This document shows positions 9,548-28,543 of a stretch of 64,000 bases of DNA, one piece after another. The DNA is taken from contig NZ_VFRP01000007.1 in assembly GCF_006385685.1 (NCBI RefSeq), positions 62,001 to 126,000 of the forward strand, in the 5' to 3' direction. Both the position numbers and the translations under genes were made by a program. Within the stretch, counting starts at the first letter, position 1. Each line of letters starts with the position of its first letter. Source of the stretch: Amaricoccus solimangrovi (lineage in GTDB: Bacteria; Pseudomonadota; Alphaproteobacteria; Rhodobacterales; Rhodobacteraceae). Under the pieces are notes generated by a model, which saw only the letters and a program-made list of their open reading frames with translations, had not been told where the DNA came from and searched no databases.

Positions 9548-11968
9548 ATGCCGAGCGAGAAGATCGCGATCCTGAGCGAGATCGAGCGCAAGCTGCTCTG
9601 GCTCTCGACCTGGACGATCCACAATGCGAACCACCTGCGCGGGAACGCGGAGGGGATCAAGGTGGGCGGGCACCAGGCCTCCTCCGCCTCGCTCGCCAGC
9701 GTGATGACCGCGCTCTATTTCGACGCGCTGCGCCCCGAGGACCGGGTGGCGGTGAAGCCGCACGCGGCGCCGGTCTTCCATGCGATCCAGTATCTGCTCG
9801 GCAACCAGACCGAGGAGAAGCTCCGGAACTTCCGGGGATTCCACGGCGCGCAGAGCTATCCCTCGCGCACGAAGGACATCGACGACGTCGACTTCTCCAC
9901 CGGCTCGGTCGGGCTCGGCGTCGCGCAGACGCTCTTCGCGGCGCTGACCCAGGACTATCTCCGCGCCAAGGGCCGCGCCTCCGGCCAGCCCGAAGGGCGG
10001 ATGGTGGCGCTTCTCGGCGACGCGGAGATGGACGAGGGCAACATCATCGAGGCGCTGATGGAGGGCTGGAAGCACGGGCTCCGGAACTGCTGGTGGGTCG
10101 TCGACTACAACCGCCAGAGCCTCGACGCGGTGGTGCGCGAGGGGCTGTGGCAGCGGTTCGAGGACCTGTTCCGGGGCTTCGGCTGGGACGTGGTGATCCT
10201 GAAATACGGCGCGCTGCAACGGGCGGCCTTCGCGGAGCCGGGCGGCGAGCGGCTGCGCGACTGGATCGACGCCTGCCCGAACCAGCTCTATTCCGCGCTG
10301 ACCTTCCAGGGCGGCGCGGCCTGGCGCGCGCGGCTCATGGACGAGATCGGCGACCAGGGCGAGGTCGCCGCGCTGCTCGACCGGCGCTCGGACGCGGAGC
10401 TCGGGGCGCTGATGGGCAATCTCGGCGGCCACGACCTGCCCTCGCTCACCGAGGCCTTCGCGGCGGCGCGCGGGCATGACCGGCCGACCTGCTTCATCGC
10501 CTATACGATCAAGGGCCACGGCCTGCCGCTCGCCGGCCACAAGGACAATCACGCCGGCCTGATGACGGCGGCGCAGGTCGAGACGCTGCGCGCGGAGATG
10601 AACGTGCGCGCGGGGCGCGAATGGGCGCCGTTCGAAGGGCTCGGCGTGCCGGAGGCGGAACTCCGCGCCTTCCTCGACGCGGTGCCCTTCGCCGGCCGCG
10701 GCCGGCGGCGGTTCGCCGCGCCGCGCGTCGCGGTGCCGGAAACGCTCGACCTGCCCGCCCAGCCGGTCATGTCGACGCAGCAGGGTTTCGGCCTGCTGAT
10801 GAACGAGCTCGGCAAGCGCGACGACGCGCTGGCGGCGGCGGTCGTCACGACCTCGCCCGATGTCACCGTCTCGACCAATCTCGGCGGCTGGGTGAACCGC
10901 CGCGGGCTCTTCGCGCGCGAGGAGATGGCGGACCTCTTCCGGCAGGAGCGCATCCCCTCGACCTTCAACTGGCGCTTCGCCCCGGAAGGCCAGCACATGG
11001 AACTCGGCATCGCCGAGATGAACCTCTTCCTGATGCTCTCCGCGATGGGCCTGTCGCATTCGCTCTTCGGCGAGCGGCTGCTGCCGGTCGGCACGCTCTA
11101 CGATCCCTTCATCCAGCGCGGGCTCGACGCGCTGAACTACGCCTGCTACCAGGACGCGCGCTTCATCCTCGTGGCGACGCCCTCGGGCATCACGCTGGCC
11201 CCGGAGGGGGGCGCGCACCAGTCGATCTCGACGCCGCTCATCGGCATGGCGCAGGACGGGCTCGCCGCCTTCGAGCCCGCCTTCTGCGACGAACTCGCCG
11301 TGATACTGCGCTTCGCCTTCGACTACGTCCAGCGCGACGGGGAAGCGGAACGCGATCCGGCGACCTGGCTTCGCGACGCCTCCGGCGGCTCGGTCTACCT
11401 GCGCCTCTCGACGCGCCCGCTCGACCAGCCGCGGCGCGCGATGACCGGCGCGCTGCGCGACCAGATCATCAACGGCGGCTACTGGCTCCGCGCGCCCGGG
11501 CCGAAGGCGCGGGTGATCCTCGCCTATCAGGGCGTGGTCGCGCCCGAGGCGATCGAGGCGGCGGGGCTTCTCGCGGAGGAGCGGACGGATCTCGGCGTGC
11601 TCGCCGTCACCTCCGCCGACCGGCTGCACGCCGGCTGGTCGGCGGCGCAGCGGGCGCGCGAACTCGGCCACACGGGCGCGCGCTGCCATGTCGAGACGCT
11701 GCTCGCGGAGGCGCCGCGGGACTGCGCCATCGTCACGGTGGCGGACGGGCATCCGGCGGGGCTCGCCTGGCTCGGATCGGTGCATGGCCACCGGACCCGC
11801 GCGCTCGGCGTCGAGCATTTCGGCCAGACCGGGACCATCGCCGATCTCTACCGCCACCACGGGATCGACGCGCAGTCGATCGCCCGCGCGGCCCAGGCGA
11901 TCAGCCCCGGCGCCCCGCTCCGCCGGCTCCGGCGGGCGACGGAGGAAGAGAGGGCCGCGGCCTCGTAG
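9548..11968 (+). CDS. Thiamine-diphosphate E1-type 2-oxoacid dehydrogenase, AceE/MdeB-like
   Basis: The 806-residue protein resembles homodimeric pyruvate dehydrogenase E1 and transketolase. It has the active-site region HAAPVFHAIQYLLG near residue 75 and a ThDP/Mg motif beginning GDAEMDEGN and ending WWVVDYNRQSLD near residues 157-193. It also has a pyrimidine-binding half starting around 400 (QQGFGLLMNELGKRDD) and a transketolase-like C-terminal domain. It is shorter than AceE (about 886) and has no adjacent E2/E3 genes. It more likely acts as MdeB-like 2-oxobutyrate dehydrogenase in amino-acid catabolism. The start has GGAGGA 9 nt upstream. Its TAG stop lies inside a REP-like element. Confidence 0.8.
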   Translation: MPSEKIAILSEIERKLLWLSTWTIHNANHLRGNAEGIKVGGHQASSASLASVMTALYFDALRPEDRVAVKPHAAPVFHAIQYLLGNQTEEKLRNFRGFHGAQSYPSRTKDIDDVDFSTGSVGLGVAQTLFAALTQDYLRAKGRASGQPEGRMVALLGDAEMDEGNIIEALMEGWKHGLRNCWWVVDYNRQSLDAVVREGLWQRFEDLFRGFGWDVVILKYGALQRAAFAEPGGERLRDWIDACPNQLYSALTFQGGAAWRARLMDEIGDQGEVAALLDRRSDAELGALMGNLGGHDLPSLTEAFAAARGHDRPTCFIAYTIKGHGLPLAGHKDNHAGLMTAAQVETLRAEMNVRAGREWAPFEGLGVPEAELRAFLDAVPFAGRGRRRFAAPRVAVPETLDLPAQPVMSTQQGFGLLMNELGKRDDALAAAVVTTSPDVTVSTNLGGWVNRRGLFAREEMADLFRQERIPSTFNWRFAPEGQHMELGIAEMNLFLMLSAMGLSHSLFGERLLPVGTLYDPFIQRGLDALNYACYQDARFILVATPSGITLAPEGGAHQSISTPLIGMAQDGLAAFEPAFCDELAVILRFAFDYVQRDGEAERDPATWLRDASGGSVYLRLSTRPLDQPRRAMTGALRDQIINGGYWLRAPGPKARVILAYQGVVAPEAIEAAGLLAEERTDLGVLAVTSADRLHAGWSAAQRARELGHTGARCHVETLLAEAPRDCAIVTVADGHPAGLAWLGSVHGHRTRALGVEHFGQTGTIADLYRHHGIDAQSIARAAQAISPGAPLRRLRRATEEERAAAS

Positions 11969-11986
11969 GGCGGACATCTGTCCGCC
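11965..11986 (+). repeat. REP-like element copy 1 (stop codon of the E1 gene inside)
   Basis: GTAG foot followed by GGCGGAC, centre ATCT, GTCCGCC. The TAG of the foot (11966-11968) is the stop codon of the upstream E1 gene. Together with copy 2 in opposite orientation it brackets the minisatellite, like a bipartite REP unit. Confidence 0.8.
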
Positions 11987-11990
11987 ATCC

Positions 11991-12137
11991 GGCGCGCCCA
12001 ACGGCGGCGCGGTCGACGGCGGCGCGCCCAACGGCGGCGCGGTCGACGGCGGCGCGCCCAACGGCGGCGTGGTCGACGGCGGCGCGGTCGACGGCGGCGC
12101 GCCCAACGGCGGCGTGGTCGACGGCGGCGCGGTTGAG
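11991..12137. repeat. 15-bp GC-rich minisatellite
   Basis: Nine full 15-bp units (12003-12137) plus a partial first unit. The main types are GGCGGCGCGGTCGAC and GGCGGCGCGCCCAAC, alternating, with variants containing GTGGTCGAC and a last unit ending GTTGAG. A 30-bp higher-order period is visible. Since 15 is a multiple of three all frames stay open, giving low-complexity shadow ORFs; I see no evidence that it is translated. It fills the gap between two convergent genes. Confidence 0.85.
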
Positions 12138-12159
12138 GGCGGACCGAGGTCCGCCCTAC
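12138..12159 (-). repeat. REP-like element copy 2 (stop codon of guaD inside)
   Basis: On the minus strand: GTAG, GGCGGAC, centre CTCG, GTCCGCC. The TAG of the foot (12158-12156) is the stop codon of guanine deaminase. Inverted relative to copy 1. Confidence 0.8.
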
Positions 12160-13484
12160 GGGTAGCGGAATTGTTCCGGCCGGTCGCGGTCGTAGACGCG
12201 TTCGCCCGCGACATAGGTCCGGCGGATCGCGCGGTCGTCGCCCATGATCATTAAGGCGAAGAGCAGTTCCTCGATCGACTGGCAGTATCCGGTCCGGAAC
12301 GCCATGAAGGGCGTCGCCTTCGGGTCGAGCACGACGAGATCGGCCTCGTAGCCCGGCGCGATCCGGCCGAGCCGGTCGCCGAGGCGGAGCGCCTCCGCGC
12401 CCCCCGCCGTGGCGAGCCAGAAGCCGCGGACCGCGTCGAGCTTCGCGCCCGAAAGCGCCACGACCTTGTAGGCCTCGTCGAGCGAGCGGAGCTGGCTGAG
12501 CGAGGTGCCGCCGCCGACGTCGGTGCCGAGCCCGACCCGGACCGGCCGCTTCGGGTCCATCGCGTCGTAGAGCCGGAACAGCCCGGAGCCGAGGAACAGG
12601 TTCGAGGTCGGGCAGAAGGCGAGCGCGGCGCCGGTGTCGTGGCAGGTCTGGAAATCGCCTTCGTGCATGTGGATCGCATGGCCGAACATCGACCGGGGGC
12701 CGACGAGCCCGGCATGGGCGTAGACGTCGAGGTAGCTCTCGCGCGCCGGGAAGAGCTCGCGCACCCATTCGATCTCGGCGCGGTTCTCGCAGAGATGCGT
12801 CTGGGTGAACACCCCCGGCGTCTCGCGCACGAGCGCGCCGGCCGCGTCGAGCTGCGCCTCGGTCGAGGTCGGCGCGAAGCGCGGCGTCACGCAGTAGAGC
12901 TGCCGCCCCACCCCGTGCCAGCGCTCGATCAGCGCGCGGCTCTCGGTGTATCCCCGCTCGGCGGTGTCGAGCAGCGCGGGCGGCGCGTTGCGGTCCATCA
13001 GCACCTTGCCCGCGATCATCCGCGTGTTGAACCGCGCCGATTCCGCGAAGAAGGCGTCGACCGAGCCGGGATGGACCGTGCAGTAGACCACCGCCGTCGT
13101 CGTGCCCGCGCGCAGCAGTTCGCGCAGGAAGAGCCCCGCGACCCGCGCGGCATGCGCGTCGTCGGCGAAGCTCTGCTCGGCGGGGAAGGTATAGGTGGTC
13201 AGCCATTCGAGCAGTTCGGTGCCATAGGCGCCGATCACCTGCATCTGCGGGTAATGCACATGCGCGTCGATAAAGCCCGGGCAGAGGAGGCCCTCGTAGC
13301 GCTCGGGCTCCACGCCCGGGCGGACCGCCGCCGGGTCGTAGGGGCCGAAGGCGGTGACGATCCCGTCCGAAATCACGGTGAGCGCGTCCTCGTGATGGGT
13401 GAGGCAGTCGCGCGGCTCGCGCAGGAAGGGATCGGCGTCGATGCTGATCGCCGCGCCGCGCAGGGCCTTCGTGGTCGCTGTCAT
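12156..13484 (-). CDS. guaD: Guanine deaminase
   Basis: The 442-residue zinc amidohydrolase converts guanine to xanthine and ammonia. It carries the metal motif PGFIDAHVHYPQ (His75, His77), the GuaD-typical ELLEWLTTYTFPAE after it, then TQTHLCEN, MFGHAIHMHE, FCPTSNLFLGSG and GLGTDVGGGTSLS. These contain the remaining Zn ligands and catalytic residues. It is the downstream gene of a purine block: the NCS2 permease gene ends 65 bp upstream and the hydroxylase genes lie behind it. The product xanthine would feed a xanthine dehydrogenase. The stop codon lies in a REP-like element shared with the inter-gene minisatellite region. Confidence 0.93.
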   Translation of the reverse strand: MTATTKALRGAAISIDADPFLREPRDCLTHHEDALTVISDGIVTAFGPYDPAAVRPGVEPERYEGLLCPGFIDAHVHYPQMQVIGAYGTELLEWLTTYTFPAEQSFADDAHAARVAGLFLRELLRAGTTTAVVYCTVHPGSVDAFFAESARFNTRMIAGKVLMDRNAPPALLDTAERGYTESRALIERWHGVGRQLYCVTPRFAPTSTEAQLDAAGALVRETPGVFTQTHLCENRAEIEWVRELFPARESYLDVYAHAGLVGPRSMFGHAIHMHEGDFQTCHDTGAALAFCPTSNLFLGSGLFRLYDAMDPKRPVRVGLGTDVGGGTSLSQLRSLDEAYKVVALSGAKLDAVRGFWLATAGGAEALRLGDRLGRIAPGYEADLVVLDPKATPFMAFRTGYCQSIEELLFALMIMGDDRAIRRTYVAGERVYDRDRPEQFRYP

Positions 13485-13511
13485 CTGGTTCTCCCGGTCG
13501 CGCGGGGGGGG

Positions 13512-13533
13512 GGCGGACAGATGTCCGCCCTAC
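13512..13533 (-). repeat. REP-like element copy 3
   Basis: Minus-strand orientation GTAG, GGCGGAC, centre ATCT, GTCCGCC, located between the NCS2 permease stop and the guaD start. Here the TAG is not used as a stop: the permease ends 17 bp earlier with TGA. It is preceded on the plus strand by a run of about 10 G residues. Confidence 0.8.
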
Positions 13534-13549
13534 GGGCGCCGCGCGGATT

Positions 13550-14854
13550 TCAATGGCCGCCGGTCTCGGCGATGAACTTGTAGAGGAAGACCGCGGCGAT
13601 CACCCAGACCACCGGATGGACCTCCTTCGCCCGGCCCGTCAGCAGCTTCAGCGCCGCGTAGGTGATGAAGCCGAAGGAGACGCCGTTCGCGATCGAATAG
13701 GTGAAGGGCATCAGCAGCGCCGTGACGCAGCCCGGGATCACCTCGGTGATGTCGTCCCATTCGAGCTCGGTCAGTTCGCGCATCATCAGGCAGGCGACGA
13801 AGAAGAGCGCGGGCGCGGTCGCATAGGGCGGCACGGTGCCCGCGAGCGGCGAGAAGAACAGCGCGAGCAGGAAGAGGACCGCGACGGTGACGGCGGTGAG
13901 CCCGGTGCGCCCGCCCTCCTGTACGCCGGCGGCGCTCTCGATATAGGCGGTCGAGGAGGAGGTGCCGAGCATCGAGCCCATGAAGATCGCGCCCGAATCC
14001 GCGAGCAGCGCCCGGCTGAGCCGCCCTTCCCGTTCCGGCGTCAGCAGCCCCGCGCGCCGGGCGACGCCCATCAGCGTGCCGGTGGCGTCGAAGAGTTCGA
14101 CGAGGAAGAAGACCAGCACGACATGGACGATCCCCGCCGAGAGCGCGCCCCGGATGTCGAGCTGGAACAGCGTCGGCATGATCGAGGGCGGCGCCGAGAC
14201 GAGGCCCGCGAAGCGGTTGTCGGTGAAGAAGTAGCTGAGCACGGTGACGAGCACGATCCCGATCAGGAGCGAGCCCTTCACGCCCCGCGCCGACATGACG
14301 CAGATCAGGATGAAGCCGATCGCGGCCAGCACCACCTCGGGCCGGTGCAGGTCGCCGATCGTGACCAGCGTCGCCTCCGAGCCCACGACGATCCCGGAGC
14401 TCTTGAGCGAGATGATCGCGAGGAAGAGGCCGATGCCGACGGTGATGGCGATCCTGAGGCTCTGCGGGATGCCGCGCACGATGATCTCGCGCAGCCTGAA
14501 GAGCGTGACGATCAGGAAGAGCGAGCCGGAGATGAAGACCGCGCCCAGCGCCTGCTGCCAGGTGAAGCCCATGCCGAGCACGACGACATAGGCGAAATAG
14601 GCGTTGAGCCCCATGCCGGGCGCGAGCGCGATCGGGTAGTTCGCGTAGAGCCCCATGATCAGCGTGCCGATCGCGGCGACGAGGCAGGTCGCGACGAAGA
14701 CCGCGCCCTGCGGCATGCCCGCGTCGCCGAGGATCATCGGGTTGATGAAGATGATGTAGGCCATGGTCACGAAGGTCGTGAAACCGGCCAGGAGCTCGGT
14801 CCTGACGTTCGTGCCGTGCTCCTTCAGGGCGAAGTATCTTTCCAGCGTCTCCAA
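13550..14854 (-). CDS. NCS2-family purine permease (AzgA/GhxP-like)
   Basis: The 434-residue inner-membrane transporter probably takes up guanine, hypoxanthine, xanthine or adenine. The start reads LETLERYFALKEHGTNVRTE, typical of the AzgA subgroup, followed by FTTFVTMAYIIFINPMIL and the conserved APGMGLNAYFAY. The NCS2 signature region (GSMLGTSSSTAYIESAAGVQEGGRTGL) is intact. The start codon is TTG (14854-14852) with GGAGG 7 nt upstream; the longer open frame upstream is antisense noise. It lies between the hydroxylase and guaD genes, matching purine salvage or catabolism. Confidence 0.9.
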   Translation of the reverse strand: METLERYFALKEHGTNVRTELLAGFTTFVTMAYIIFINPMILGDAGMPQGAVFVATCLVAAIGTLIMGLYANYPIALAPGMGLNAYFAYVVVLGMGFTWQQALGAVFISGSLFLIVTLFRLREIIVRGIPQSLRIAITVGIGLFLAIISLKSSGIVVGSEATLVTIGDLHRPEVVLAAIGFILICVMSARGVKGSLLIGIVLVTVLSYFFTDNRFAGLVSAPPSIMPTLFQLDIRGALSAGIVHVVLVFFLVELFDATGTLMGVARRAGLLTPEREGRLSRALLADSGAIFMGSMLGTSSSTAYIESAAGVQEGGRTGLTAVTVAVLFLLALFFSPLAGTVPPYATAPALFFVACLMMRELTELEWDDITEVIPGCVTALLMPFTYSIANGVSFGFITYAALKLLTGRAKEVHPVVWVIAAVFLYKFIAETGGH

Positions 14855-14982
14855 GTCCGTCCTCCAGTCCGGGCGGTTCCCCGCGGCAAGGGGGAGCCGG
14901 GGCCGGTCGCGGGGGGCGCGCCGGCGGGTTGCGTCTCGTCTCGGGCGGTCGCGCCGGGCGGGGGCCGCCCCGGCGCCATCTC

Positions 14983-18740: not shown

Positions 18741-19727
18741 ATGACGGAGAAATCCCCCGGGCCGCGGGAGCGGCCGCGCAAATCCTCCCTCTCTCCCGCG
18801 CTGCTCGCGCGCGTGTTTCACCAGCCCGCGCTCGTCTATTTCAACGCGGTCGCCGAGCATCTGTCGATTCGCGAGGCGGGCCGGCGGCTCAACGTCGCCT
18901 CCTCCGCCGTCTCGCGGCAGATCAGCGCGCTCGAGGACGGGCTCGGCCTGCCGCTCTTCGAGCGCGAGGGCCGCCGGCTGCGCCTCGCGCCCTCGGGCGA
19001 GATCCTCTACCGCCACACCCGCCGCCTCTCCGGGCCGCTGGAGGCGGCGGTGCAGGAACTGGAGATGCTGCGCGGACTCAAGACCGGCACGGTGCGGCTC
19101 GCCACGGTCGAGAGCGTCGGCTTCTCCTTCCTGCCGGAGATCATCGCCGAGTTCGGGCGGCGCTATCCGCGCATCCATCTCGACATCTCGGTCTGTTCCT
19201 CGGCGGATGTGATCGAACGCCTGCTCGCGGAGCGCTGCGACATCGGCCTCGGCTTCGTCTCCGCGCTCCCGCCCCGGATCGAGGCGGCGCTCCGGCGCGA
19301 CGTGCGCATCGGCGTCGTGACGCGGCCCGACCATCCGCTGGCGGCGCGCGAGAACCCGACGCTGCGCGACTGCGTCGCGCATCCGGTCGCGGTCGGCAAG
19401 CCCGAGATCTCGATCCGCGCGGTGATCGAGCCGTTCCTGCGCCGCGACGGCGAGGCGCCGCCGCCGCTGGTCGAGGTCGATTCGATCCGGCTGCTGGTCG
19501 AACTGGCGCTGACGGGGGCCTATGCCTCGATCATGACCCCGATCGGCGCGCAGGCGGCGCTGGCGCGGGGCGATCTGGTCTTCCGCCCGCTCGCCGACCA
19601 GGGCCTGCCGCTCAACCGCTTCGCGCTCCTCGCGCGCGCCGGCGGCAACCTGCGCTTCGCCGCGGCCGTCTTCCACGAACACGCGCGCCAGAGGCTCGCC
19701 GCCCTCCCCCTCCCCGGCTCCGTGTAG
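18741..19727 (+). CDS. LysR-family regulator, probably of the purine block
   Basis: The 328-residue regulator has an N-terminal winged helix at about residues 31-90 (LVYFNAVAEHLSIREAGRRL, then SSAVSRQISALEDGLGLPLFERE). A periplasmic-binding-protein-like ligand domain follows (VRLATVESVGFSFLPEIIAEFGRRYP). It is divergent from the hydroxylase operon, which it probably activates in response to a purine. The ATG at 18741 is chosen at the start of LysR-like sequence; the open frame continues upstream only in antisense of the FAD gene. The TAG stop lies in REP-like copy 4. Confidence 0.88.
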   Translation: MTEKSPGPRERPRKSSLSPALLARVFHQPALVYFNAVAEHLSIREAGRRLNVASSAVSRQISALEDGLGLPLFEREGRRLRLAPSGEILYRHTRRLSGPLEAAVQELEMLRGLKTGTVRLATVESVGFSFLPEIIAEFGRRYPRIHLDISVCSSADVIERLLAERCDIGLGFVSALPPRIEAALRRDVRIGVVTRPDHPLAARENPTLRDCVAHPVAVGKPEISIRAVIEPFLRRDGEAPPPLVEVDSIRLLVELALTGAYASIMTPIGAQAALARGDLVFRPLADQGLPLNRFALLARAGGNLRFAAAVFHEHARQRLAALPLPGSV

Positions 19728-19745
19728 GGCGGACGTCCGTCCGCC
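19724..19745 (+). repeat. REP-like element copy 4 (stop codon of the LysR gene inside)
   Basis: GTAG, GGCGGAC, centre GTCC, GTCCGCC. The TAG (19725-19727) is the stop of the LysR gene. Confidence 0.8.
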
Positions 19746-19773
19746 CCGCGAGCGCGGGGGGGGACGGGAGGGC

Positions 19774-19795
19774 GGCGGACAGATGTCCGCCCTAC
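19774..19795 (-). repeat. REP-like element copy 5
   Basis: Minus-strand GTAG, GGCGGAC, centre ATCT, GTCCGCC. The 8 bases before the foot (CGCTCGCG on the minus strand) equal the last bases of the M20 peptidase gene, so this copy looks like a duplicate of copy 6 plus the gene tail. Confidence 0.8.
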
Positions 19796-19818
19796 GCGAG
19801 CGGGACGGACGGAAGGAT

Positions 19819-19840
19819 GGCGGACAGATGTCCGCCCTAC
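19819..19840 (-). repeat. REP-like element copy 6 (stop codon of the M20 gene inside)
   Basis: Same sequence as copy 5, 45 bp further on. The TAG of the foot (19839-19837) is the stop codon of the M20 peptidase. With copy 4 in the opposite orientation this forms a bipartite cluster between convergent genes. Confidence 0.8.
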
Positions 19841-21216
19841 GCGAGCGCGGCGAGGACGCGGGCCCAGGAGCGGATGCCCTTGTGGAAGCAGGCGAGGTTG
19901 TACTTCTCGTTCGGGCTGTGGATCCCGTCGTCGTCGAGCCCGAACCCCGCGAGGATCACGTCCATGCCGAGCCTGTTCTTGAAGTCGCCCGCGATCGGGA
20001 TCGAGCCGCCCGCGCCGATGAAGGGCGCGGGCCTGCCCCATTCCTCGGAGAGCGCCCGCTGCGCGGCGCCGAAGGCCGGATTGGCGGTGTCGAAGGCGAC
20101 CGCCCGCCCGTTGCCATGGGGATGGAACTCGACCTCGCAATCCTCTGGCAGCCGCGCCCTCACGAAGTCCCGGAACGCGGCGCGGATCTTCTCCGGATCC
20201 TGGTCGAAGACCAGCCGGAAGGAGACCTTGGCCCGCGCCTCGGCCGGGATCACCGTCTTGAACCCCGCGCCCTGGTAGCCGCCGCCCATGCCGTTCACCT
20301 CGGCCGTCGGCCGCGACCAGATCATCTCGAGCGCCGATCGCCCGGTCTCGCCGGCCGGGACCGCGAGCCCGACGCCGCCGAGAAACGCCGCCACGTCGAA
20401 ATCGAGCGCCTCCCACTGCGCGCGCAGGCTCTCCGGGATCTCGGGCACGCCGTCGTAGAAACCCGGGATCGTCACCCTTCCGTCGGCGTCGTGGAGATCG
20501 GCGAGGATGCGCGCGAGCACGTGGTTCGCATTCGCCGCCGCCGAGCCGTACATGCCCGAATGCAGGTCCCGGCTCGCCCCCCGGATCACGATCTCCTCGC
20601 CGCAGAGCCCGCGCAGCATCGTCGTGATCGCGGGCGTCTCCGCGTCCCACATGCCGGTGTCGCAGATGAGCCCGAGATCGGCTTTCAGCTCGTCCCCGTG
20701 CGCCTCGAGGAAGGCGGGCAGGCTCGGGCTGCCCGATTCCTCCTCGCCCTCGAGCATGATCGAGACCGGGACCGGCAGCGCGCCCGTGACCGCGACCCAG
20801 GCGCGGCAGGCCTCGATGAAGGTCATGAACTGGCCCTTGTCGTCGGCGGCGCCCCGGGCGCGGATCACCTTCGCGCCGTCGGCGAGCGTCTCGACCGCCG
20901 GTTCGAAGGGCGGACGGTTCCAGAGCTCGGGCGGGTCGACCGGCTGCACGTCGTAATGGCCGTAGAACAGCACCGAGCGGCCCGGCGCGGCGCGGTTGTG
21001 CGCGACGACGATCGGATGGCCCGTCGTCGGCCGCGCCGCCGCCTCGAAGCCGAGCGCGGCCAGATCCGCGGCCACCGCCTCGGCGCAGCGCGCGCAATCG
21101 GCCAGATAGGCGGGATCGGTCGAGATCGACGGGATCCGCAGCAGCGCGAAGAGCCGCTCGAGCGCGGCGGGCTGGTCGGCGTCGATATGGGCGAGGACGG
21201 CCTCGAGGTCGGACAT
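19837..21216 (-). CDS. M20-family metallopeptidase (dipeptidase)
   Basis: The 459-residue di-zinc peptidase probably hydrolyses dipeptides or related amides in the cytoplasm. Metal-site motifs: FYGHYDVQPVD with His87, ARGAADDKGQFMT with the bridging Asp near 125, LEGEEESGSPSL with the catalytic Glu near 159. A late GGSIPIAGDF and a C-terminal His in DGIHSPNEKYNL complete the site. The lid domain (SRDLHSGMYG to EAR) is intact. The ATG at 21216 has GGAGA 8 nt upstream; an ATG two codons earlier is possible. It is single and convergent with the LysR gene across a REP-rich spacer. Confidence 0.9.
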   Translation of the reverse strand: MSDLEAVLAHIDADQPAALERLFALLRIPSISTDPAYLADCARCAEAVAADLAALGFEAAARPTTGHPIVVAHNRAAPGRSVLFYGHYDVQPVDPPELWNRPPFEPAVETLADGAKVIRARGAADDKGQFMTFIEACRAWVAVTGALPVPVSIMLEGEEESGSPSLPAFLEAHGDELKADLGLICDTGMWDAETPAITTMLRGLCGEEIVIRGASRDLHSGMYGSAAANANHVLARILADLHDADGRVTIPGFYDGVPEIPESLRAQWEALDFDVAAFLGGVGLAVPAGETGRSALEMIWSRPTAEVNGMGGGYQGAGFKTVIPAEARAKVSFRLVFDQDPEKIRAAFRDFVRARLPEDCEVEFHPHGNGRAVAFDTANPAFGAAQRALSEEWGRPAPFIGAGGSIPIAGDFKNRLGMDVILAGFGLDDDGIHSPNEKYNLACFHKGIRSWARVLAALA

Positions 21217-21382
21217 GGGCATGCTCTCCGGATCTTGCACCCTGCCCGGCGCGCGCGCGTCGGGCCGGCCGGCGGAGCCTAGCGCACCGGTGGTCCGGGG
21301 CCAGCGAAAAAGCGCGGACCCGGTTCGGCCTTCCGCGAAGGCCCCGGTTCCGGCATAAAGGCGGCGGGGAGGAACCGGCGGG

Positions 21383-22084: not shown

Positions 22085-22115
22085 GAAAGACCGGCGCGGA
22101 ACCGGTGAGGCATTG

Positions 22116-22128
22116 GTGACTTAGTCAC
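22116..22128. promoter_or_regulatory. Putative Crp/Fnr-type operator
   Basis: Dyad GTGAC-TTA-GTCAC lies 31 bp after the regulator stop and about 70 bp before the leader ORF. The half-site GTGAC resembles the TGTGA half-site of Crp-family proteins. It is a candidate binding site for the regulator just upstream. Confidence 0.55.
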
Positions 22129-22142
22129 AGACGCGCGGGGCG

Positions 22143-22177
22143 CTCCGATGGCATGAGGATGCCAACGCATATCGGAG
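22143..22177 (+). promoter_or_regulatory. Leader RNA stem that buries a ribosome-binding site
   Basis: CTCCGAT (22143-22149) pairs with ATCGGAG (22171-22177), enclosing an inner hairpin GGCAT/ATGCC (22150-22163, loop GAGG). The 3' strand contains GGAG, the ribosome-binding site of the 43-codon ORF that starts at 22186. Translation of that ORF, and by coupling the transporter gene, could therefore depend on opening this stem. Confidence 0.5.
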
Positions 22178-22185
22178 AAACCGAG

Positions 22186-22317
22186 ATGACCAGAACCATC
22201 GGCCCCGCCGATCGCGCCCCGCGCCGCGTCGCGGGCCGCGTGACGACCGCCACGCCGGGCGCGGCTCCGCGCCCGTTCCACCCGTTTTCCGGCACAAGGA
22301 CCCGCGCCCGGCCATGA
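22186..22317 (+). CDS. 43-codon leader ORF overlapping the YeeE/YedE start
   Basis: A short ATG frame preceded by GGAGAAA at 6-8 nt encodes 43 residues, basic and Pro/Arg-rich, with no cysteine and no membrane segment (start MTRTIGPADRAPRRV). Its TGA overlaps the next ATG as ATGA, the layout of translational coupling. I do not recognise the peptide. It may be a regulatory leader or a spurious frame in GC-rich DNA; the ribosome-binding site and the exact overlap support the former. Confidence 0.4.
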   Translation: MTRTIGPADRAPRRVAGRVTTATPGAAPRPFHPFSGTRTRARP

Positions 22318-22748
22318 CCAGCTTCACCCCCTTCGCCTCGCTCGCGGGCGGCGCCCTCATCGGCCTCGCCGCCGTCCTGCTGATGACGCTGGCGGGCCGC
22401 GTCTTCGGCGCGACCGGCGTGCTGACCGGCGCTTTCCTGCCCACCGGCCCCGGCGACCGGGGCTGGCGGCTGGCGCTTCTCGCCGGAATGGTCACCGCGC
22501 CGCTCCTCTGGCGGCTCTTCGCGGGCGCCATGCCCGCGCTGAGCGTTCCGGTCGGCCCGCTCGCGCTCGCCATCGGCGGGCTGCTCGTCGGCGTCGGCGT
22601 CACGCTCGGCGGCGGCTGCACCTCGGGCCACGGCGTCTGCGGGATGGCGCGGCTCTCGCCCCGCTCGATCGTGGCGACCCTCACCTTCCTCGCGACCGCC
22701 ATCGTCACGGTCTACGTGATCCGGCACGTCATCGGAGTTCAGCCATGA
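22314..22748 (+). CDS. YeeE/YedE-family half-transporter (PmpA-like)
   Basis: The 144-residue membrane protein has four hydrophobic segments and the sulfur-handling motif GGGCTSGHGVCGMARLS near residue 101. This matches the DUF395 family that includes the thiosulfate transporter TsuA. Short one-domain versions occur in pairs. It probably moves a sulfur species such as thiosulfate or a persulfide across the inner membrane with its partner gene. The partner starts 4 bp inside its end (ATGA-type overlap). Placement before persulfide dioxygenase supports a role in reactive-sulfur metabolism. Confidence 0.85.
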   Translation: MTSFTPFASLAGGALIGLAAVLLMTLAGRVFGATGVLTGAFLPTGPGDRGWRLALLAGMVTAPLLWRLFAGAMPALSVPVGPLALAIGGLLVGVGVTLGGGCTSGHGVCGMARLSPRSIVATLTFLATAIVTVYVIRHVIGVQP

Positions 22749-23179
22749 AGCTCGTCGCCACTTATCTCATCGGCCTCGTCTTCGGCCTCGGCATCGCCCT
22801 CTCGGGCATGATCAACCCGGCCAAGGTGCTGAACTTCTTCGATATCGCCGGCACCTGGGATCCGAGCCTCGCCTTCGTCATGGGCGGCGCGCTGATCGTC
22901 ACCGCGATCGGCTACCGCCTCGCCTTCCGACGCGGGCGCCCGGTCCTCGACCGGACGTTCCACCTGCCGAAGGCCTCGGCGATCGACGCCCGCCTCGTCG
23001 GCGGCTCGATGATCTTCGGCCTCGGCTGGGGCATCGCCGGCTTCTGCCCCGGCGGCGCCCTGCCCGCCCTCGGCACCGGGCGCGGCGAAGTGCTTCTCTT
23101 CGTCGCCGCGCTCGTCGCCGGCATCCTTGTCACCCGCGCGGTGCTCGACCGCCGCGCCGCGGCCCCGCGCCGCGCCTGA
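22745..23179 (+). CDS. YeeE/YedE-family half-transporter (PmpB-like)
   Basis: The 144-residue partner has four membrane segments, the opening KLVATYLIGLVFGLGIALSGM with NPAKVLNFFDI behind it, and a second conserved cysteine motif GWGIAGFCPGGALPALGTG. It overlaps the previous gene by 4 bp and precedes the dioxygenase by 17 bp, so three cistrons form one operon. The two halves likely form a heterodimer equivalent to one full-length TsuA-like protein. Confidence 0.85.
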   Translation: MKLVATYLIGLVFGLGIALSGMINPAKVLNFFDIAGTWDPSLAFVMGGALIVTAIGYRLAFRRGRPVLDRTFHLPKASAIDARLVGGSMIFGLGWGIAGFCPGGALPALGTGRGEVLLFVAALVAGILVTRAVLDRRAAAPRRA

Positions 23180-23196
23180 TCCGGAGGAACCCTGTC

Positions 23197-24081
23197 ATGA
23201 CCTATCCGATCGACACCTCGGTCAAGCCCGAAGTCACCGGCTTCTTCGACCCGGCCACCAACACCGTCAGCTACGTCGTCAAGGACCCGGCCACCGACGC
23301 CTGCGCGATCGTCGATTCCGTGATGGACATCGACTACGCCGCCGGCCGGATCTCCTACGGCCACGCCGACCAGATCATCGACTTCGTCGAGCGCCACCAG
23401 CTCAGGGTCGAATGGCTGATCGAGACGCATGTGCATGCCGACCACCTCTCGGCCGCGCCCTATATCCAGGGCAGGCTCGGCGGCAAGCTCGGCATCGGCT
23501 CGAAGATCAAGGTGGTGCAGGAGACCTTCGGCAAGATCTTCAACGAGGGTACCGAGTTCCAGCGCGACGGCAGCCAGTTCGACCGGCTGTTCGAGGATGG
23601 CGACACCTACGAGATCGGCACGATGAAGGCCTTCGCGATCCACACGCCCGGCCACACGCCCGCCTGCATGACGCATGTGATCGGCGACGCGGCCTTCGTC
23701 GGCGACACGCTCTTCATGCCGGACGGCGGCTCGGCGCGCGCCGATTTCCCGGGGGGCGACGCGGGCACGCTCTACGATTCGATCCAGAAGGTGCTGGCGC
23801 TGCCCGACGAGACCCGGCTCTTCATGTGCCACGACTACGCGCCGAACGGCCGCGAGATCCGGTGGGAGACCACCGTCGCGGAGGAAAAGGCGCACAACAT
23901 CCACGTCGGACAGGGCACCACGCGGGAGGCCTTCGTGAAGATGCGCGAGGAGCGCGACGCGTCGCTCGACATGCCGAAGCTCATCATCCCGTCGCTGCAG
24001 ATCAACATGCGCGCGGGCGAACTGCCCCCCGCCGACGAGAGCGGCAAGCGCTTCCTGAAGGTGCCGCTGAACGGGCTCTGA
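23197..24081 (+). CDS. Persulfide dioxygenase-type metallo-beta-lactamase-fold protein
   Basis: The 294-residue protein resembles ETHE1/Blh-type persulfide dioxygenases, which oxidise glutathione persulfide to sulfite. The metal motif THVHADHLSAA gives His78, His80, Asp82 and His83. TPGHTPACMTHVIGD, FVGDTLFMPDGGSARADFPGGD and LFMCHDYAPNGRE supply the remaining ligands and the dioxygenase-type signature. GGAGGA precedes the ATG. Its product sulfite and the transporter pair upstream indicate detoxification or use of sulfide-derived sulfane sulfur. A strong hairpin follows. No rhodanese domain is fused and no sulfide:quinone reductase gene lies in the window. Confidence 0.9.
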   Translation: MTYPIDTSVKPEVTGFFDPATNTVSYVVKDPATDACAIVDSVMDIDYAAGRISYGHADQIIDFVERHQLRVEWLIETHVHADHLSAAPYIQGRLGGKLGIGSKIKVVQETFGKIFNEGTEFQRDGSQFDRLFEDGDTYEIGTMKAFAIHTPGHTPACMTHVIGDAAFVGDTLFMPDGGSARADFPGGDAGTLYDSIQKVLALPDETRLFMCHDYAPNGREIRWETTVAEEKAHNIHVGQGTTREAFVKMREERDASLDMPKLIIPSLQINMRAGELPPADESGKRFLKVPLNGL

Positions 24082-24096
24082 GCCCCGGGAAACGAA

Positions 24097-24127
24097 GGCG
24101 GGCGCTCCCGTTTCGGGGGCGCCCGCC
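24097..24127 (+). terminator. Strong hairpin after the dioxygenase gene
   Basis: 14-bp stem with one G-U pair (GGCGGGCGCTCCCG against CGGGGGCGCCCGCC) and a TTT loop, 16 bp after the stop. No T-run follows. A likely operon terminator. Confidence 0.65.
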
Positions 24128-24243
24128 GGCCCGTTCCGGGAGAAATCCGTTAACCCTCCGCAACCTTGGGTGTTGCAAAGCGCGCGTCGCGGATCGATAG
24201 TCACCTCCAATGCACGCGATGGTTGCGGGGTGGAGGTCACTGC

Positions 24244-25893
24244 GTGGGCGCTGGGAAAGAGGACGACGGCGCGCGGATCCTGAGCCTGTCCCGCAAGCTC
24301 GCCGCGATCCACGCCGCGGGCGTGGCGCTCCTCCTCTTCGTCGTGATCTCGGCGACGCTCTGGATCTCGGCCGAGCATAACAGCCTCGCCCGCGTCGGTT
24401 CGGAGGAGCTGGTGTCGAGCGGCGTGAACGCGCTGCGCAACCGGCTCGGCACGCTGGTGCGCGACTATTCGATCTGGGACGACGCCTACGAGAACATCCT
24501 CGCCGACGACCGCGCCTGGATCTATCGCAACATCGGCAACGCGGCGACCGAGATCGGCACGGTCGACCTGATCGAATTCGTCCGCGCCGCGGGCGGCCCC
24601 CCCTTCGGATGGCGCGCGAGCTCGCCCCCCGGGGGGGAGACGGAGATCCTGCCCGCGTCGCTGCTGAACCGCATCCTGCGCGAACTCGACCCGCGCGATC
24701 CCGAGCGCGACATGCCCGGAACGCTGCTCGCGGAATACGACGGCGCGCCCTGGATCTTCTCGCTCGCCCTCGTCCGCCCGGTCGCGGGCATGCCGCCCGG
24801 GGTTCCGCCGGAGGCGCTGCCGCGCCAGATCCACGGCTACCAGCTCACGCGCGAACGGCTCGCCCGGATCGGCCGGGAACTTCTGATCGACGACATCCGG
24901 CTGGAGCCGGGCGACGCGGTCCCGGACGGTTCGGCGCGGCTTCCGCTCCGCAACGAGCTCGGCCGGGTGATCGGCCAGGTGGTCTGGACGCCGCCCCGGC
25001 CGGGGGCGAGCATCCTGCGCCGGGTCGCGCCGCCGCTCGGCCTCGCGCTCGCCGCGGTGATGGTGATCGGCCTCGTCAGTTCCCGCTCGGCGGTACGCGC
25101 GGCCGAGCGGCTCGAGGAGGCGCTCGACGCCGCCAAGGCCGCCGACCGCAGCAAGACGGAGTTCCTGTCGAACGTCAGCCACGAGTTGCGCACGCCGATG
25201 AACGGGATCCTCGGCGTCGCGCAACTGCTGCGCACCACCCCGCTCGACGCCGAGCAGCGCGAACTCCTCGAGATCCTGTTCAGCTCCGCCAATACGCAGA
25301 TGGCCCTCATCTCGGATCTCCTCGACCTCAGCCGGATCGAGAACGGCAACCGCGAGCTCTCGTCCGAGCCTTTCGAGCCGGCGGCGATCCTGCGCGACGT
25401 CTCCGACATGATCCGCGTCGCCGCCGCCAAGAAGGGCGTGGGCTTCACCGCCGATTTCGACGCGCTCACGGGCCTCGCGCTCACCGGCGACGCCCGCGCG
25501 TTCCGCCAGATCCTGACCAACCTGCTCGGCAACGCGGTCAAGTTCACCGACGCGGGCGGCGTGACGCTCCGGGCCGAGGTCCGGGGCGGGGACGGAAACG
25601 GAGACGGGGACGGGAACGGGGCGTGGCTTCTGGTCGTGAGCATCGCCGATACTGGCCGCGGGATCGCCGCGGCCGCCCTGCCCCGGATCTTCGACCGGTT
25701 CTACCAGGTCGACGGCTCGCCGACGCGCGCGGCCGAGGGCACGGGCCTCGGCCTCGCGATCAGCCAGTCGCTCGCGCGCATGATGGGCGGACGGATCGAG
25801 GTCGAGAGCCGGCTCGGCGCCGGATCGACCTTCGTCTTCAGCGCGCCCTTTGACCTCGCCGAGGCGCGGGCCGGAGATCTCGATGCGGCCTGA
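24244..25893 (+). CDS. Membrane sensor histidine kinase with CHASE4-like domain
   Basis: The 549-residue kinase has two membrane segments (about 15-36 and 260-282) around a periplasmic domain. That domain contains LVRDYSIWDDAYENI, the CHASE4 hallmark. The cytoplasmic part has a HisKA domain with phospho-acceptor His313 (SNVSHELRTPMNGILG) and an HATPase domain (NLLGNAVKFTD, DTGRGI, GTGLGLAISQSL). A short Gly/Asp/Asn-rich insert lies between the N and G1 boxes. GTG at 24244 has GGAGG 9 nt upstream. The receiver gene overlaps its end, so the two form a phosphorelay pair. Signal unknown. Confidence 0.9.
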   Translation: MGAGKEDDGARILSLSRKLAAIHAAGVALLLFVVISATLWISAEHNSLARVGSEELVSSGVNALRNRLGTLVRDYSIWDDAYENILADDRAWIYRNIGNAATEIGTVDLIEFVRAAGGPPFGWRASSPPGGETEILPASLLNRILRELDPRDPERDMPGTLLAEYDGAPWIFSLALVRPVAGMPPGVPPEALPRQIHGYQLTRERLARIGRELLIDDIRLEPGDAVPDGSARLPLRNELGRVIGQVVWTPPRPGASILRRVAPPLGLALAAVMVIGLVSSRSAVRAAERLEEALDAAKAADRSKTEFLSNVSHELRTPMNGILGVAQLLRTTPLDAEQRELLEILFSSANTQMALISDLLDLSRIENGNRELSSEPFEPAAILRDVSDMIRVAAAKKGVGFTADFDALTGLALTGDARAFRQILTNLLGNAVKFTDAGGVTLRAEVRGGDGNGDGDGNGAWLLVVSIADTGRGIAAAALPRIFDRFYQVDGSPTRAAEGTGLGLAISQSLARMMGGRIEVESRLGAGSTFVFSAPFDLAEARAGDLDAA

Positions 25894-26323
25894 ACCCCGC
25901 GACCCCCTCGGCGGCGCCCCCCGCCCCGATCTCGGCGCCGGACCGGCGCGGCGCGTCCTCGTCGTCGAGGACAACGAGGTCAATGCGATGATCCTCGCCG
26001 CGATGCTGCGCCGGGGCGGATGGGAGCCGGTCGCCGCGGCCGATGGCCTCGCCGGGATCGAGATGTCCGCGCGGCTCCATCCGCGGCTCATCCTGATGGA
26101 TCTGCAGATGCCGCGGCTCGACGGTTTCGCGGCCGCCCGCGACATCCTGCGCGCGAGCGCGCGGGAGGCCTGCCCGCCGCCGGCGATCGTCGCGATCACC
26201 GCCGCGCCGGGACCGGAAGCCCGCGCCTCCTGCCTCGCGGCCGGATTCGCGGACCTTCTGCCGAAACCGGTCGAGATGTCCGACCTGCTGGCGCTGGTGC
26301 GCCGCCACATGGAAGGGGAATAG
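25883..26323 (+). CDS. Single-domain response regulator
   Basis: The 146-residue protein consists of a receiver domain after a Pro-rich N terminus: VLVVEDNEVNAMIL, phospho-acceptor Asp73 in LILMDLQMPRLDG, Thr in AITA, and Lys in LPKPVEM. There is no output domain, so it probably acts by protein contact or as a phosphate shuttle. The ATG (GGAG 7 nt upstream) lies within the last codons of the kinase, an 11-bp overlap showing co-translation. Confidence 0.9.
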   Translation: MRPEPRDPLGGAPRPDLGAGPARRVLVVEDNEVNAMILAAMLRRGGWEPVAAADGLAGIEMSARLHPRLILMDLQMPRLDGFAAARDILRASAREACPPPAIVAITAAPGPEARASCLAAGFADLLPKPVEMSDLLALVRRHMEGE

Positions 26324-26326
26324 AGC

Positions 26327-26351
26327 GCGGGCGCCCCCGGGGCCAGCCCGC
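26327..26351. terminator. Hairpin between convergent response regulator and SET genes
   Basis: GCGGGC pairs with GCCCGC around a CCCCGGGG-containing loop, in the 41-bp gap between two convergent stops. Possible bidirectional terminator, no T-run. Confidence 0.4.
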
Positions 26352-26364
26352 CCGTCCCGCCCGG

Positions 26365-26841
26365 TCAGGCCGCCACCGGCTGACGTTCCAGGCCGCGCAG
26401 GAAATGATAGTGGCGCCGGCCCTGGCGCATGTAGAACGGATGGAGCCAGTGCCGGGGATCGAGCCCGGCGTCGGCCCAGAAGGAATAATCCTCGAAGAGT
26501 TCCTCCCCGGCGGCGATGTCGCGCAGCGCGACGCAGTGATCCTGGCGGAGTTCGGGCCAGAACCCCAGGCCCACATTGGCCATCTCGCCGTCGGCGTGGT
26601 TCATGAACTGCATTCCGTCGCGGTACCACAGGAACTTGTCGGACGGGCCGTGCAGATATCCGCCATGGAGCGCGTAGGCGAGATCCCGGTCGTCGAGACC
26701 GGCCAGCGCGTTCGAATCACACACATGCATGCTCTCGTCGAACTGCCAGAGCCGGGTGCCCGACCTGATCGCGCGACGCGCGAAGACCCCCATGCCGTCC
26801 ACCTTGCTCGACCTGAACTCGACATCAACCAACCAGCTCAA
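26365..26841 (-). CDS. Small SET-domain protein
   Basis: The 158-residue protein shows a SET methyltransferase pattern: an early VDGMGVFARRAIRSGTRLWQFD, a central MQFMNHADGEMANVGLG corresponding to the NHS motif that binds S-adenosylmethionine, and a late IAAGEELFEDYSFW corresponding to the GEEL.DY motif. No pre-SET or post-SET zinc clusters are present. Bacterial stand-alone SET proteins may methylate lysines, but the target is unknown. The start is TTG at 26841 with an excellent AAGGAGGTG upstream. The gene faces away from an AT-rich intergenic region, unlike its GC-rich surroundings, and is convergent with the kinase/receiver pair. Confidence 0.75.
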   Translation of the reverse strand: MSWLVDVEFRSSKVDGMGVFARRAIRSGTRLWQFDESMHVCDSNALAGLDDRDLAYALHGGYLHGPSDKFLWYRDGMQFMNHADGEMANVGLGFWPELRQDHCVALRDIAAGEELFEDYSFWADAGLDPRHWLHPFYMRQGRRHYHFLRGLERQPVAA

Positions 26842-27237
26842 TTACACCTCCTTCTGTTCCATGGCGAATACAGAGCGCCGCTGTGCTCCAACTTTTATCA
26901 CCATTCTATTCAACTTGCGCGTACTTCTCCACAAGTATGGTTATCACGCGTAACCACACTTAATCTTTAATACTATTAATGATAGATTGACGCGGGAGTG
27001 CAAGAGGAAAATGCACGCTAAAAGTGTATTCCATTTTATACCAGGCAGATGATCCGCCACCCTCTTCGCCCGTCGCGGCGTCTTCGGGCTCGCGCGCCGC
27101 CCCCCGGGCCTTGGACCATTGGCCAAGAGAATCGCGCCCCGCCGATGGGCTAGCGTCCCGGCGAGCGGCGCGGCCCCGGTTTGACCGGGCGGCGCGCGAT
27201 GCTATGGGATGACCAGGGAATCAAGGAGGAACCGGGC
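26842..27237. other. Intergenic region with an AT-rich patch
   Basis: The roughly 400 bp between the SET and fghA genes contain no convincing ORF. About 26840-27050 is markedly AT-rich (for example TAATCTTTAATACTATTAAT), against a GC-rich background. It holds the SET-gene promoter region, but I could not fix a confident -35/-10 pair. The remaining 180 bp are GC-rich, with the fghA ribosome-binding site AAGGAGGA at the end. No inverted-repeat ends or transposase remnants were seen. Confidence 0.6.
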
Positions 27238-28068
27238 ATGAAGACGGTATCGGAGAACGCGGCCTTCGGCGGCACACAAGGGGTCTACACCCATGCGTCC
27301 GAGGTCTGCGGCTGCGACATGACCTTCGCCGTCTACACCCCGCCGCAGGCGAAGGCCGGGCCGGTCCCGGTGCTGTGGTATCTCTCGGGCCTCACCTGCA
27401 CGCACGAGAATGCGATGACCAAGGCGGGGGCGCAGGCCTGGGCGGCGCGCGAGGGGATCGCGCTGGTCTTCCCCGACACCTCGCCGCGCGGCGAGGGCGT
27501 CGCGAACGACGAGGCCTACGACCTCGGCCAGGGCGCGGGTTTCTACGTCGACGCGACCGAGACGCCGTGGAGCCCGCATTTCCGGATGTGGTCCTATGTG
27601 ACCGAGGAACTGCCCACGCTCCTCTTCCGCAATTTCGAGCTCGAGGAAGGCGCGCAGGGCATCACCGGCCATTCGATGGGCGGCCATGGCGCGCTCACCA
27701 TCGCGCTCACCTATCCCGACCGGTTCAAGTCGGTCTCGGCCTTCGCGCCGATCGCCAATCCGAGCAATTCGGACTGGGGCCGCAAGCAGCTCGGCGCCTA
27801 TCTCGGCGCGGAGAGCGCGGCCTGGCACGCGCATGATTCGAGCCTGCTCCTGCGCGAGAAGGGCTGGAAGGGCCAGCTGCTGATCGACCAGGGCGCGAAC
27901 GACCAGTTCCTCGACCTGCTGAAGCCCGAGGCGCTCGCGAGCGCGATCGCGGAACGGCGCCAGCCCGCGACCTTCCGGATGCAGCCCGGCTACGACCACA
28001 GCTACTTCTTCGTCGCCTCCTTCATGGAGGATCACGTGAGCTTCCACGCCGAGGCGCTCTACGCGTGA
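27238..28068 (+). CDS. fghA: S-formylglutathione hydrolase
   Basis: The 276-residue alpha/beta hydrolase (esterase D family) releases formate and glutathione from S-formylglutathione, the last step of glutathione-dependent formaldehyde oxidation. Signatures: LWYLSGLTCTHENAMTKAG near the oxyanion region, nucleophile Ser146 in GHSMGGHGAL, the acid in DQGANDQFL and the histidine in PGYDHSYFF. AAGGAGGA precedes the ATG. Its TGA overlaps the GTG of the following DUF188 gene (GTGA). The glutathione-dependent formaldehyde dehydrogenase gene is not in the window. Confidence 0.95.
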   Translation: MKTVSENAAFGGTQGVYTHASEVCGCDMTFAVYTPPQAKAGPVPVLWYLSGLTCTHENAMTKAGAQAWAAREGIALVFPDTSPRGEGVANDEAYDLGQGAGFYVDATETPWSPHFRMWSYVTEELPTLLFRNFELEEGAQGITGHSMGGHGALTIALTYPDRFKSVSAFAPIANPSNSDWGRKQLGAYLGAESAAWHAHDSSLLLREKGWKGQLLIDQGANDQFLDLLKPEALASAIAERRQPATFRMQPGYDHSYFFVASFMEDHVSFHAEALYA

Positions 28069-28517
28069 TCTACGTCGACGCCGATGCCTGCCCGGTCCGC
28101 GACGAGGTGCTGCGCGTGGCCGAGCGGCACGGCGTCGCGGTCGTCTATGTCGCCAATGGCGGGATCCGGCCGAGCCGGCACCCGCTCGCCCGCGTCATCG
28201 TGGTCGACCAGGGCGCGGACGCGGCGGACAAGTGGATCGCCGAGCGGATCGGGCCGGGCGATCTCTGCGTCACGGCGGACATTCCGCTCGCCGCGCGGGT
28301 GGTCGAGGCGGGCGGCCTCGTGCTCGCGCCCGACGGGGCGCGGCTCGACGCGCGCAACATCGGCGAGAAGCTCGCGACGCGCGACCTGATGGCCGACCTG
28401 CGCGCCGCCGACCCGTTCCGGCAGGGCGGCGGCAGGAGCTTCCGCCCCGCCGACCGGTCCCGCTTCCTCGAAGCCTTGGAGCGCGAACTCCGCGCCCTCC
28501 CGAAACCCGCGCCGTAA
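28065..28517 (+). CDS. DUF188 (YaiI/YqxD) family protein
   Basis: The 150-residue protein begins IYVDADACPVRDEV and continues VVYVANGG, GPGDLCVTADIPLAARVVEAGG and GGGRSFRPADRSRFLEALE, all hallmarks of the UPF0178/DUF188 family. That family has a PIN-like nuclease fold of unknown biological role. The GTG start overlaps the fghA stop by 4 bp, giving a two-gene operon. A REP-like element lies 4 bp after its TAA. Confidence 0.88.
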   Translation: MIYVDADACPVRDEVLRVAERHGVAVVYVANGGIRPSRHPLARVIVVDQGADAADKWIAERIGPGDLCVTADIPLAARVVEAGGLVLAPDGARLDARNIGEKLATRDLMADLRAADPFRQGGGRSFRPADRSRFLEALERELRALPKPAP

Positions 28518-28521
28518 CGCC

Positions 28522-28543
28522 GTAGGGCGGACTTCAGTCCGCC
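28522..28543 (+). repeat. REP-like element copy 7 (stop codon of the NUDIX gene inside)
   Basis: GTAG, GGCGGAC, centre TTCA, GTCCGCC, after the DUF188 gene. On the opposite strand the NUDIX gene reads through the GTCCGCC arm and ends at the TGA formed at the centre (28536-28534). Confidence 0.8.

Follow-up and report, generated by a model that had tools for sequence, protein, structure and literature searches.

A GTAG-footed hairpin at seven positions of the window

The window, a 64,000-nucleotide stretch of the genome of Amaricoccus solimangrovi, contains seven copies of one 22-bp element that we regard as a repetitive extragenic palindrome (REP). By pattern search, 7/7 copies match exactly the order GTAG, arm GGCGGAC, any four-nucleotide center, and arm GTCCGCC, at the positions given in a first-pass annotation of this DNA. 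The hairpin sequence of the REP is GTAGGGCGGAC, and we refer to the GTAG tetranucleotide as its foot.

As had been annotated, the foot TAG is the in-frame stop codon of the adjacent gene in four copies. Copy 1 (11965..11986, plus strand, center ATCT) has its foot TAG at 11966-11968, the stop of a transketolase/E1-like gene (9548-11968), and copy 2 (12138..12159, minus strand, center CTCG) forms the stop of an amidohydrolase (guaD) gene (12156-13484). The names E1 and guaD, which go past the Pfam family level, are those of the first-pass annotation. Copy 4 (19724..19745, plus strand, center GTCC) forms the stop of a LysR gene (18741-19727), and copy 6 (19819..19840, minus strand, center ATCT) that of an M20 peptidase gene (19837-21216), so that the four genes end at 11968, 12156, 19727, and 19837. 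Copy 3 (13512..13533, minus strand, center ATCT) forms no stop and has its foot 16 bases beyond the TGA of a permease gene (13550-14854). Copy 5 (19774..19795, minus strand, center ATCT) also forms no stop and is flanked by two stop-forming copies. The foot of copy 7 (28522..28543, plus strand, center TTCA) lies beyond the TAA of a DUF188 gene (28065-28517); on the opposite strand, a NUDIX gene (28534-29013, minus strand) terminates at a TGA (28534-28536) made by the center of this copy, again as annotated. The space between the stop-forming copies at 11965 and 12138 is occupied by tandem-like GGCGGCGCGCCCAAC / GGCGGCGCGGTCGAC units (12000-12137). A search of the window allowing up to three mismatches found 26 matches, with 28.06 expected, and its significance is uninformative.

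Genome-wide copies and their position at stop codons

An exact pattern search of the genome (a draft assembly of 4.86 Mb in 135 contigs), allowing any four-nucleotide center as the first-pass annotation had proposed, identified 118 exact copies, with 57 on one strand and 61 on the other. The reversed control pattern had no match in the same search. All 118 copies were covered by 56 fetched stretches plus the window, with the listing of copies split by pattern (50 and 68); copies with altered letters were tallied within the fetched stretches only. The most frequent centers were ATCT (49 copies), CTCG (36), and ATTT (12), with others rarer. A palindrome scan of the sampled A. solimangrovi DNA identified 135 hairpins with the arm of the element, of which 117 had kept the GTAG foot and 18 had lost it. 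Footless hairpins with the same arm include those at L035:2703, L035:2790, L045:2568, L044:7494, and L050:2550, and several of the 18 read GTGG or GCAG. One hairpin (L072:2563-2588), the sole case among the 135, has a GTAG foot on both ends. In flank counts, N-[T/C]-C-C was common 3′ of the hairpin, and no run of T was seen there. RNA folding of four versions of the element gave −13.8 to −17.2 kcal/mol. The folded stem begins immediately 3′ of the TAG; for the CTCG version with the tail TTCC, it extends into the TAG. The claim that the element places a hairpin right at translation termination was thereby borne out. Forty-six pairs of neighboring copies lie within 120 bases of each other: 19 tail-to-tail, 16 in the same direction, and 11 foot-to-foot.

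Of the 118 copies, 45 have a foot TAG that serves as the in-frame stop of a gene, and the 45 genes, hereafter stop-foot genes, are all distinct (gene ends throughout are those of our own gene caller). At 83 copies, a foot-facing gene end lies within 60 bases, and 45 of these 83 feet are exactly at the stop (p about 1e-70 with feet placed randomly). The first-pass annotation had made its case depend on such an excess over chance, and the excess is present. The placement is sharp: 45 feet coincide with a stop, against 6 in the 10 bases that follow, a spike that disfavors random insertion. Another 31 feet form no stop and are found 20-59 bases downstream of one. For none of the 118 copies does a gene enter from the foot side with its stop 5-60 bases beyond the foot, and 2/118 copies, which form one foot-to-foot pair in stretch L066, lie inside a called gene. 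At that pair (L066:2566-2616), convergent aminotransferase and luciferase-like genes overlap by 15 bases, each passing tail-first through the hairpin nearer to it and stopping at the foot of the other hairpin. Convergent spaces hold 75 of the 118 copies, whereas they make up 68 of the 328 gene-gene spaces of the same stretches; a single copy lies in a divergent space, and the remaining 117 are in convergent or tandem spaces. Feet supply the stops of both genes in 10 of 29 convergent spaces.

We compared 20 called genes with Pfam, and all 20 matched a family. Since 17 of the 20 were stop-foot genes, and all 17 matched, the stop use is no artefact of spurious open reading frames. The families include chorismate synthase (aroC), lipoyl synthase (radical SAM with LIAS_N; lipA), and FlgI, as well as DNA gyrase/topoisomerase IV subunit A (parC-like), phosphoribosyl-AMP cyclohydrolase (hisI), class I E/Q tRNA synthetase-like, and HbpS-like proteins. 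The hisI/tRNA synthetase-like junction of A. solimangrovi (L050) contains three hairpins, with a GTAG foot at the end of each gene; in the congener G006 (L276), the convergent hisI and class I tRNA synthetase-like genes share one CTAG, with overlapping stops. We considered overlapping CTAG stops as the general ancestor of the two-sided cases and rejected this, having found them in 1 of 78 called convergent pairs in the stretches of the congener G009 and in 1 of 68 in those of A. solimangrovi.

No exact copy of the element was found in 40 relatives, 10 of them congeners. Among 394 sampled genomes of the family, exact copies occur only in A. solimangrovi and in G084, and 392 of the 393 other genomes have none. 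G084, which belongs to a different genus of the same family, has a single exact copy (C1:851750-851771). In the genomes compared, the element thus seems to have multiplied in this species, or to have been lost elsewhere, and the expansion is apparently recent. This distribution bears on the proposal that the element is a non-mobile hairpin terminator that arose through selection at the gene ends themselves, which would account for the stability of the hairpin and for the gene-end and convergent bias. However, a single arm sequence is present at 118 sites of one species, with no exact copy in 10 congeners; the GTAG foot is conserved; neighboring copies are inverted, in the same direction, or foot-to-foot; and no run of T follows the hairpin. 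We consider a terminator of this kind very improbable.

C termini of genes that end on a foot

The first-pass annotation had also proposed that insertion cost these genes their native C termini, by trimming or replacement. We compared protein ends with those of orthologs in the fetched parts of two congeners, G009 and G006, which offered usable orthologs for 98 control genes and for 19 of the 45 stop-foot genes. Best hits with less than 45% identity or less than 70% coverage, or that ran off the end of a stretch, were dropped (52 of 120 in G009; 49 of 109 in G006). The A. solimangrovi protein had the same end residue as its best congener ortholog for 7/19 stop-foot genes versus 37/98 controls, and an end within 2 residues for 12/19 versus 65/98. 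Identity over the last ten residues was 0.547 for stop-foot genes versus 0.543 for controls, and the length difference gave a p of 0.20. The A. solimangrovi protein was shorter in 10 of the 19 cases and longer in 2, and for controls the corresponding numbers were 37 and 24 of 98 (p=0.19). The FlgI protein ends in ...HAEFIVQ in both species, with the stop TAG in A. solimangrovi versus TAA in G009, and the LysR protein ends in PGSV, with PGAV (followed by TAA) in the ortholog. An ortholog with an identical TAG end and no element was named in the first-pass annotation as evidence that would count against it; lipA of G006 is such a case, with a GTAG end at the same residue, and GTAG-ended orthologs overall were found for 2/19 stop-foot genes versus 8/98 controls.

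Three genes were also compared singly, the orthologs of aroC and M20 being separate from the 19-gene set. AroC has equal length in 4 of 9 congeners and is 5 and 4 residues longer in G009 and G006, respectively. For the M20 gene of L052, 6 of 10 ortholog rows match in length, and the closest two orthologs are 2 residues longer. Among 88 ortholog rows for guaD (G006 counted twice, as L124 and L149), 50 end later, 2 have the same length, and 36 end earlier; four of the five orthologs with >74% identity extend 3-6 residues further and one is 6 residues short. We conclude that, in these ortholog alignments, wholesale trimming or replacement of C termini as a rule is not supported. The excess of shorter over longer proteins, the 4 to 5 residues in aroC, and a weaker coding signal of the last 30 bases, described below, do point toward trimming, and trimming by a few codons, with some rewriting of gene ends, is possible.

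A REP family at stop codons

We favor, with a probability of roughly three in four, the reading that the element is a non-autonomous GTAG-tagged REP family of the kind mobilized by REP-associated tyrosine transposases (RAYTs), multiplied in this one Amaricoccus species. It has the features of such families: a palindrome of 20-40 bp (here 22 bp) with GTAG at one foot, copies that are grouped and often inverted, and a high copy number, mainly extragenic and downstream of genes. The copy number, the restriction to this species among the searched genomes (except G084), the geometry, the stop use, and the control-like protein ends are observations. Each copy is made up of a 7-bp hairpin and, at its 5′ foot, GTAG as guide tetranucleotide, and copies occupy short spaces behind genes, above all convergent ones. 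The foot very often coincides with, or is near, the gene's own stop position, where its TAG ends translation and the hairpin starts on the next base. Transfer may have been as single-stranded DNA by a RAYT that was supplied in trans or has since been lost, and it may have involved landing at, or capture of, a stop rather than a random cut into a gene. By analogy with E. coli REPs near stops, the hairpin might slow termination or protect the mRNA 3′ end.

Di Nocera et al. (2013; PMC3733652) describe, in the relevant passages, a GTAG-tagged REP superfamily of short palindromes with GTAG at one end, high copy number, frequent inverted groups, and a location in convergent or unidirectional spaces. 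The same passages state that GTAG termini often supply a TAG stop (termed opal there) to flanking open reading frames; for two genomes, they place the majority of convergent REPs no more than 20 bp from the 3′ ends of both genes. That GTAG feet supply stops is therefore already published; in contrast to that work, stop use is here counted genome-wide (45/118), with 2/118 intragenic copies, congener ortholog controls, and no intact RAYT found. Passages of PMC6006769 describe GTAG as the guide for RAYT at the hairpin foot, 5′ of the hairpin. According to the sections available of Nunvar et al. (2010; PMC2817692), RAYT-associated REPs, with the same GTAG foot, lie very near or directly behind rayt stops. 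For E. coli, the accessible part of PMC12306157 reports that REPs <16 nucleotides from a stop lower translation; alike is the hairpin within 15 nucleotides of a stop, whereas in A. solimangrovi the foot itself is the stop and the stem starts on the base after it. The text of PMC3686654 contains no word starting with “stop,” and none of the ten papers listed by one literature search contains the word Amaricoccus. REPINs are two inverted REPs with a conserved spacer that move as a unit. The tail-to-tail copies here do not have this form: among 18 pairs the spacers measure anywhere between 15 and 65 bases, one more pair overlaps, and the few spacers inspected by eye, unaligned, were mutually unlike.

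Several points weigh against the reading as a RAYT-type REP family. Movement itself was not seen, because the comparison had no strain-level empty site. PF01797 detected no transposase in the A. solimangrovi genome at E≤0.001. The RAYT model NF047646 had matches in 3 of 13 genomes, namely two class relatives (one above the cut-off) and A. solimangrovi, and none in the 8 congeners searched (of 10); the A. solimangrovi match is a C-terminal piece only, at 53.6 bits versus a cut-off of 80. This match belongs to a broken RAYT remnant (L033:1440-1734; G000 C1, about 196.7 kb) with start-like and C-terminal pieces in different frames. The C-terminal piece alone scores 54.9 bits over 47 residues; the upstream piece resembles the start of a RAYT in a weak alignment, a likeness that also draws on the typical N-terminal motif, and the middle is missing. 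A hairpin whose arm is GGTGGGC and whose loop has 5 bases carries the TAG of the remnant in its GTAG foot; behind it lies an inverted partner that differs slightly. Because this arm differs from that of the element, the remnant need not be the cognate enzyme. The pattern with a four-nucleotide loop gave no match for the remnant's arm, since its loop has 5 bases, and a hairpin of this type was seen once in the palindrome scan of sampled A. solimangrovi stretches. The remnant resembles the REPtron arrangement (PMC2817692, in the part consulted) in that its stop lies in a GTAG foot, whereas no intact RAYT flanked by the same REP was found in the genome and the arm of the remnant's hairpin differs. 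The protein-end comparison covers just 19 of the 45 stop-foot genes, in distant congeners (49-93% protein identity). The coding signal over the last 30 bases is 1.35 in stop-foot genes (n=44, one of the 45 being excluded by a length or score filter) versus 2.00 in other genes (n=292; p=0.011) and versus 2.71 in 67 neighbors, genes that end not on a foot but no more than 120 bases from a copy (p=1.7e-4). Finally, the terminal residue is proline in 15/45 stop-foot genes versus 20/297 others. The weaker coding signal and the terminal proline are hints of some rewriting of gene ends.

Such rewriting is what the first-pass annotation would lead one to expect if its account is spelled out as a REP that brings CGTAG, lands randomly near gene ends, and survives only where an in-frame landing costs few residues. 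The foot unit does look carried, because 64 of the 73 non-stop copies have a C immediately before GTAG, and the proline enrichment, the coding signal, the guaD rows (50 later and 36 earlier, with four of the five closest extending 3-6 residues), the longer aroC products, and the 10 shorter versus 2 longer of 19 proteins all agree with it. However, if copies landed randomly and purifying selection then acted, one would expect similar densities on the two sides of the stop and some run-through, unlike the spike of 45 versus 6. A third of the landings would be expected in frame, yet the two copies of the L066 pair are the only intragenic ones (p about 2e-19). Moreover, ends are shared with orthologs as often as in controls, and C is rarer before stop feet (30/45; p=0.009). 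We therefore regard random supply of stops as unlikely.

A different possibility is that the REP inserted directly downstream of a native GTAG (or CGTAG) stop that was already present, so that the stop was selected and not supplied. This would parallel IS200/IS605 elements, whose insertion is on the 3′ side of a tetranucleotide. The protein ends that resemble those of controls, the GTAG end of lipA in G006 without the element, and the absence of any gene crossing a copy from the foot side fit such targeting. GTAG tallies speak on both sides; they rely on the A. solimangrovi stretches, which are biased toward copies, because in G009 the gene model trained on the A. solimangrovi genome called 588 genes in 855 kb, which makes the intergenic count too high. 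Of the unoccupied GTAGs, 28 either are stops or lie no more than 100 bases from a 3′ end; 13 of these are stops, close to 45/118 (p=0.52), but measured against all 79 unoccupied non-intragenic GTAGs, the 13 stops fall below 45/118 (p=0.0013). The other genes of the same stretches (n=297) have 242 TGA, 35 TAG, and 20 TAA stops, and G precedes 12 of the 35 TAGs, so that 12/297 end in GTAG (13 at a lower score cut-off). Since just ~4% of other genes end this way, the 10 two-sided cases in 29 convergent spaces are a misfit (p about 2e-7 at a base rate of 13/297; about 0.02 counting occupied ends). TAG-ended orthologs are also not significantly enriched, at 6/21 rows for stop-foot genes versus 14/96 for controls with TGA or TAA in A. 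solimangrovi (p=0.20), and the passages of PMC6006769 treat GTAG as a guide that belongs to the element. Joining to a preexisting GTAG stop is possible, if somewhat doubtful.

The two-sided cases would need no rare double target if the REP landed in the space behind the gene, and the gene was later fused to the foot by a small deletion between native stop and foot, via a short shared sequence (T, TA, or TAG). Capture of this kind would also account for the near-native ends and the lost native TGA or TAA, and the 31 non-stop feet 20-59 bases behind a stop are consistent with it. Dozens of similar deletions would be required, though, and none was directly seen; we think this quite unlikely.

Within the reading that we favor, of a RAYT-type REP family, REP transposition may have been aimed at, or rescued at, stop codons, with the native stop joined and TAG regenerated in frame, even on both sides of convergent junctions. 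We advance this tentatively, as a suggestion with the odds against it. From the first-pass interpretation, REP identity, above-chance stop use, and the hairpin at the stop are retained, and trimming as a rule and an intact RAYT gene are not, the only RAYT found being the broken remnant beside a different hairpin.

If transposition is aimed or rescued at stops, a mobile element would leave proteins whole while placing a hairpin directly behind the stops of dozens of genes, housekeeping genes included. The published remark on REP feet as stops is now quantified, and no general shortening of proteins was found. The question accordingly shifts from harmless insertion by trimming to why the element sits exactly at the stop, and conserved genes in which the hairpin starts immediately behind the stop would be a natural test set for termination control.

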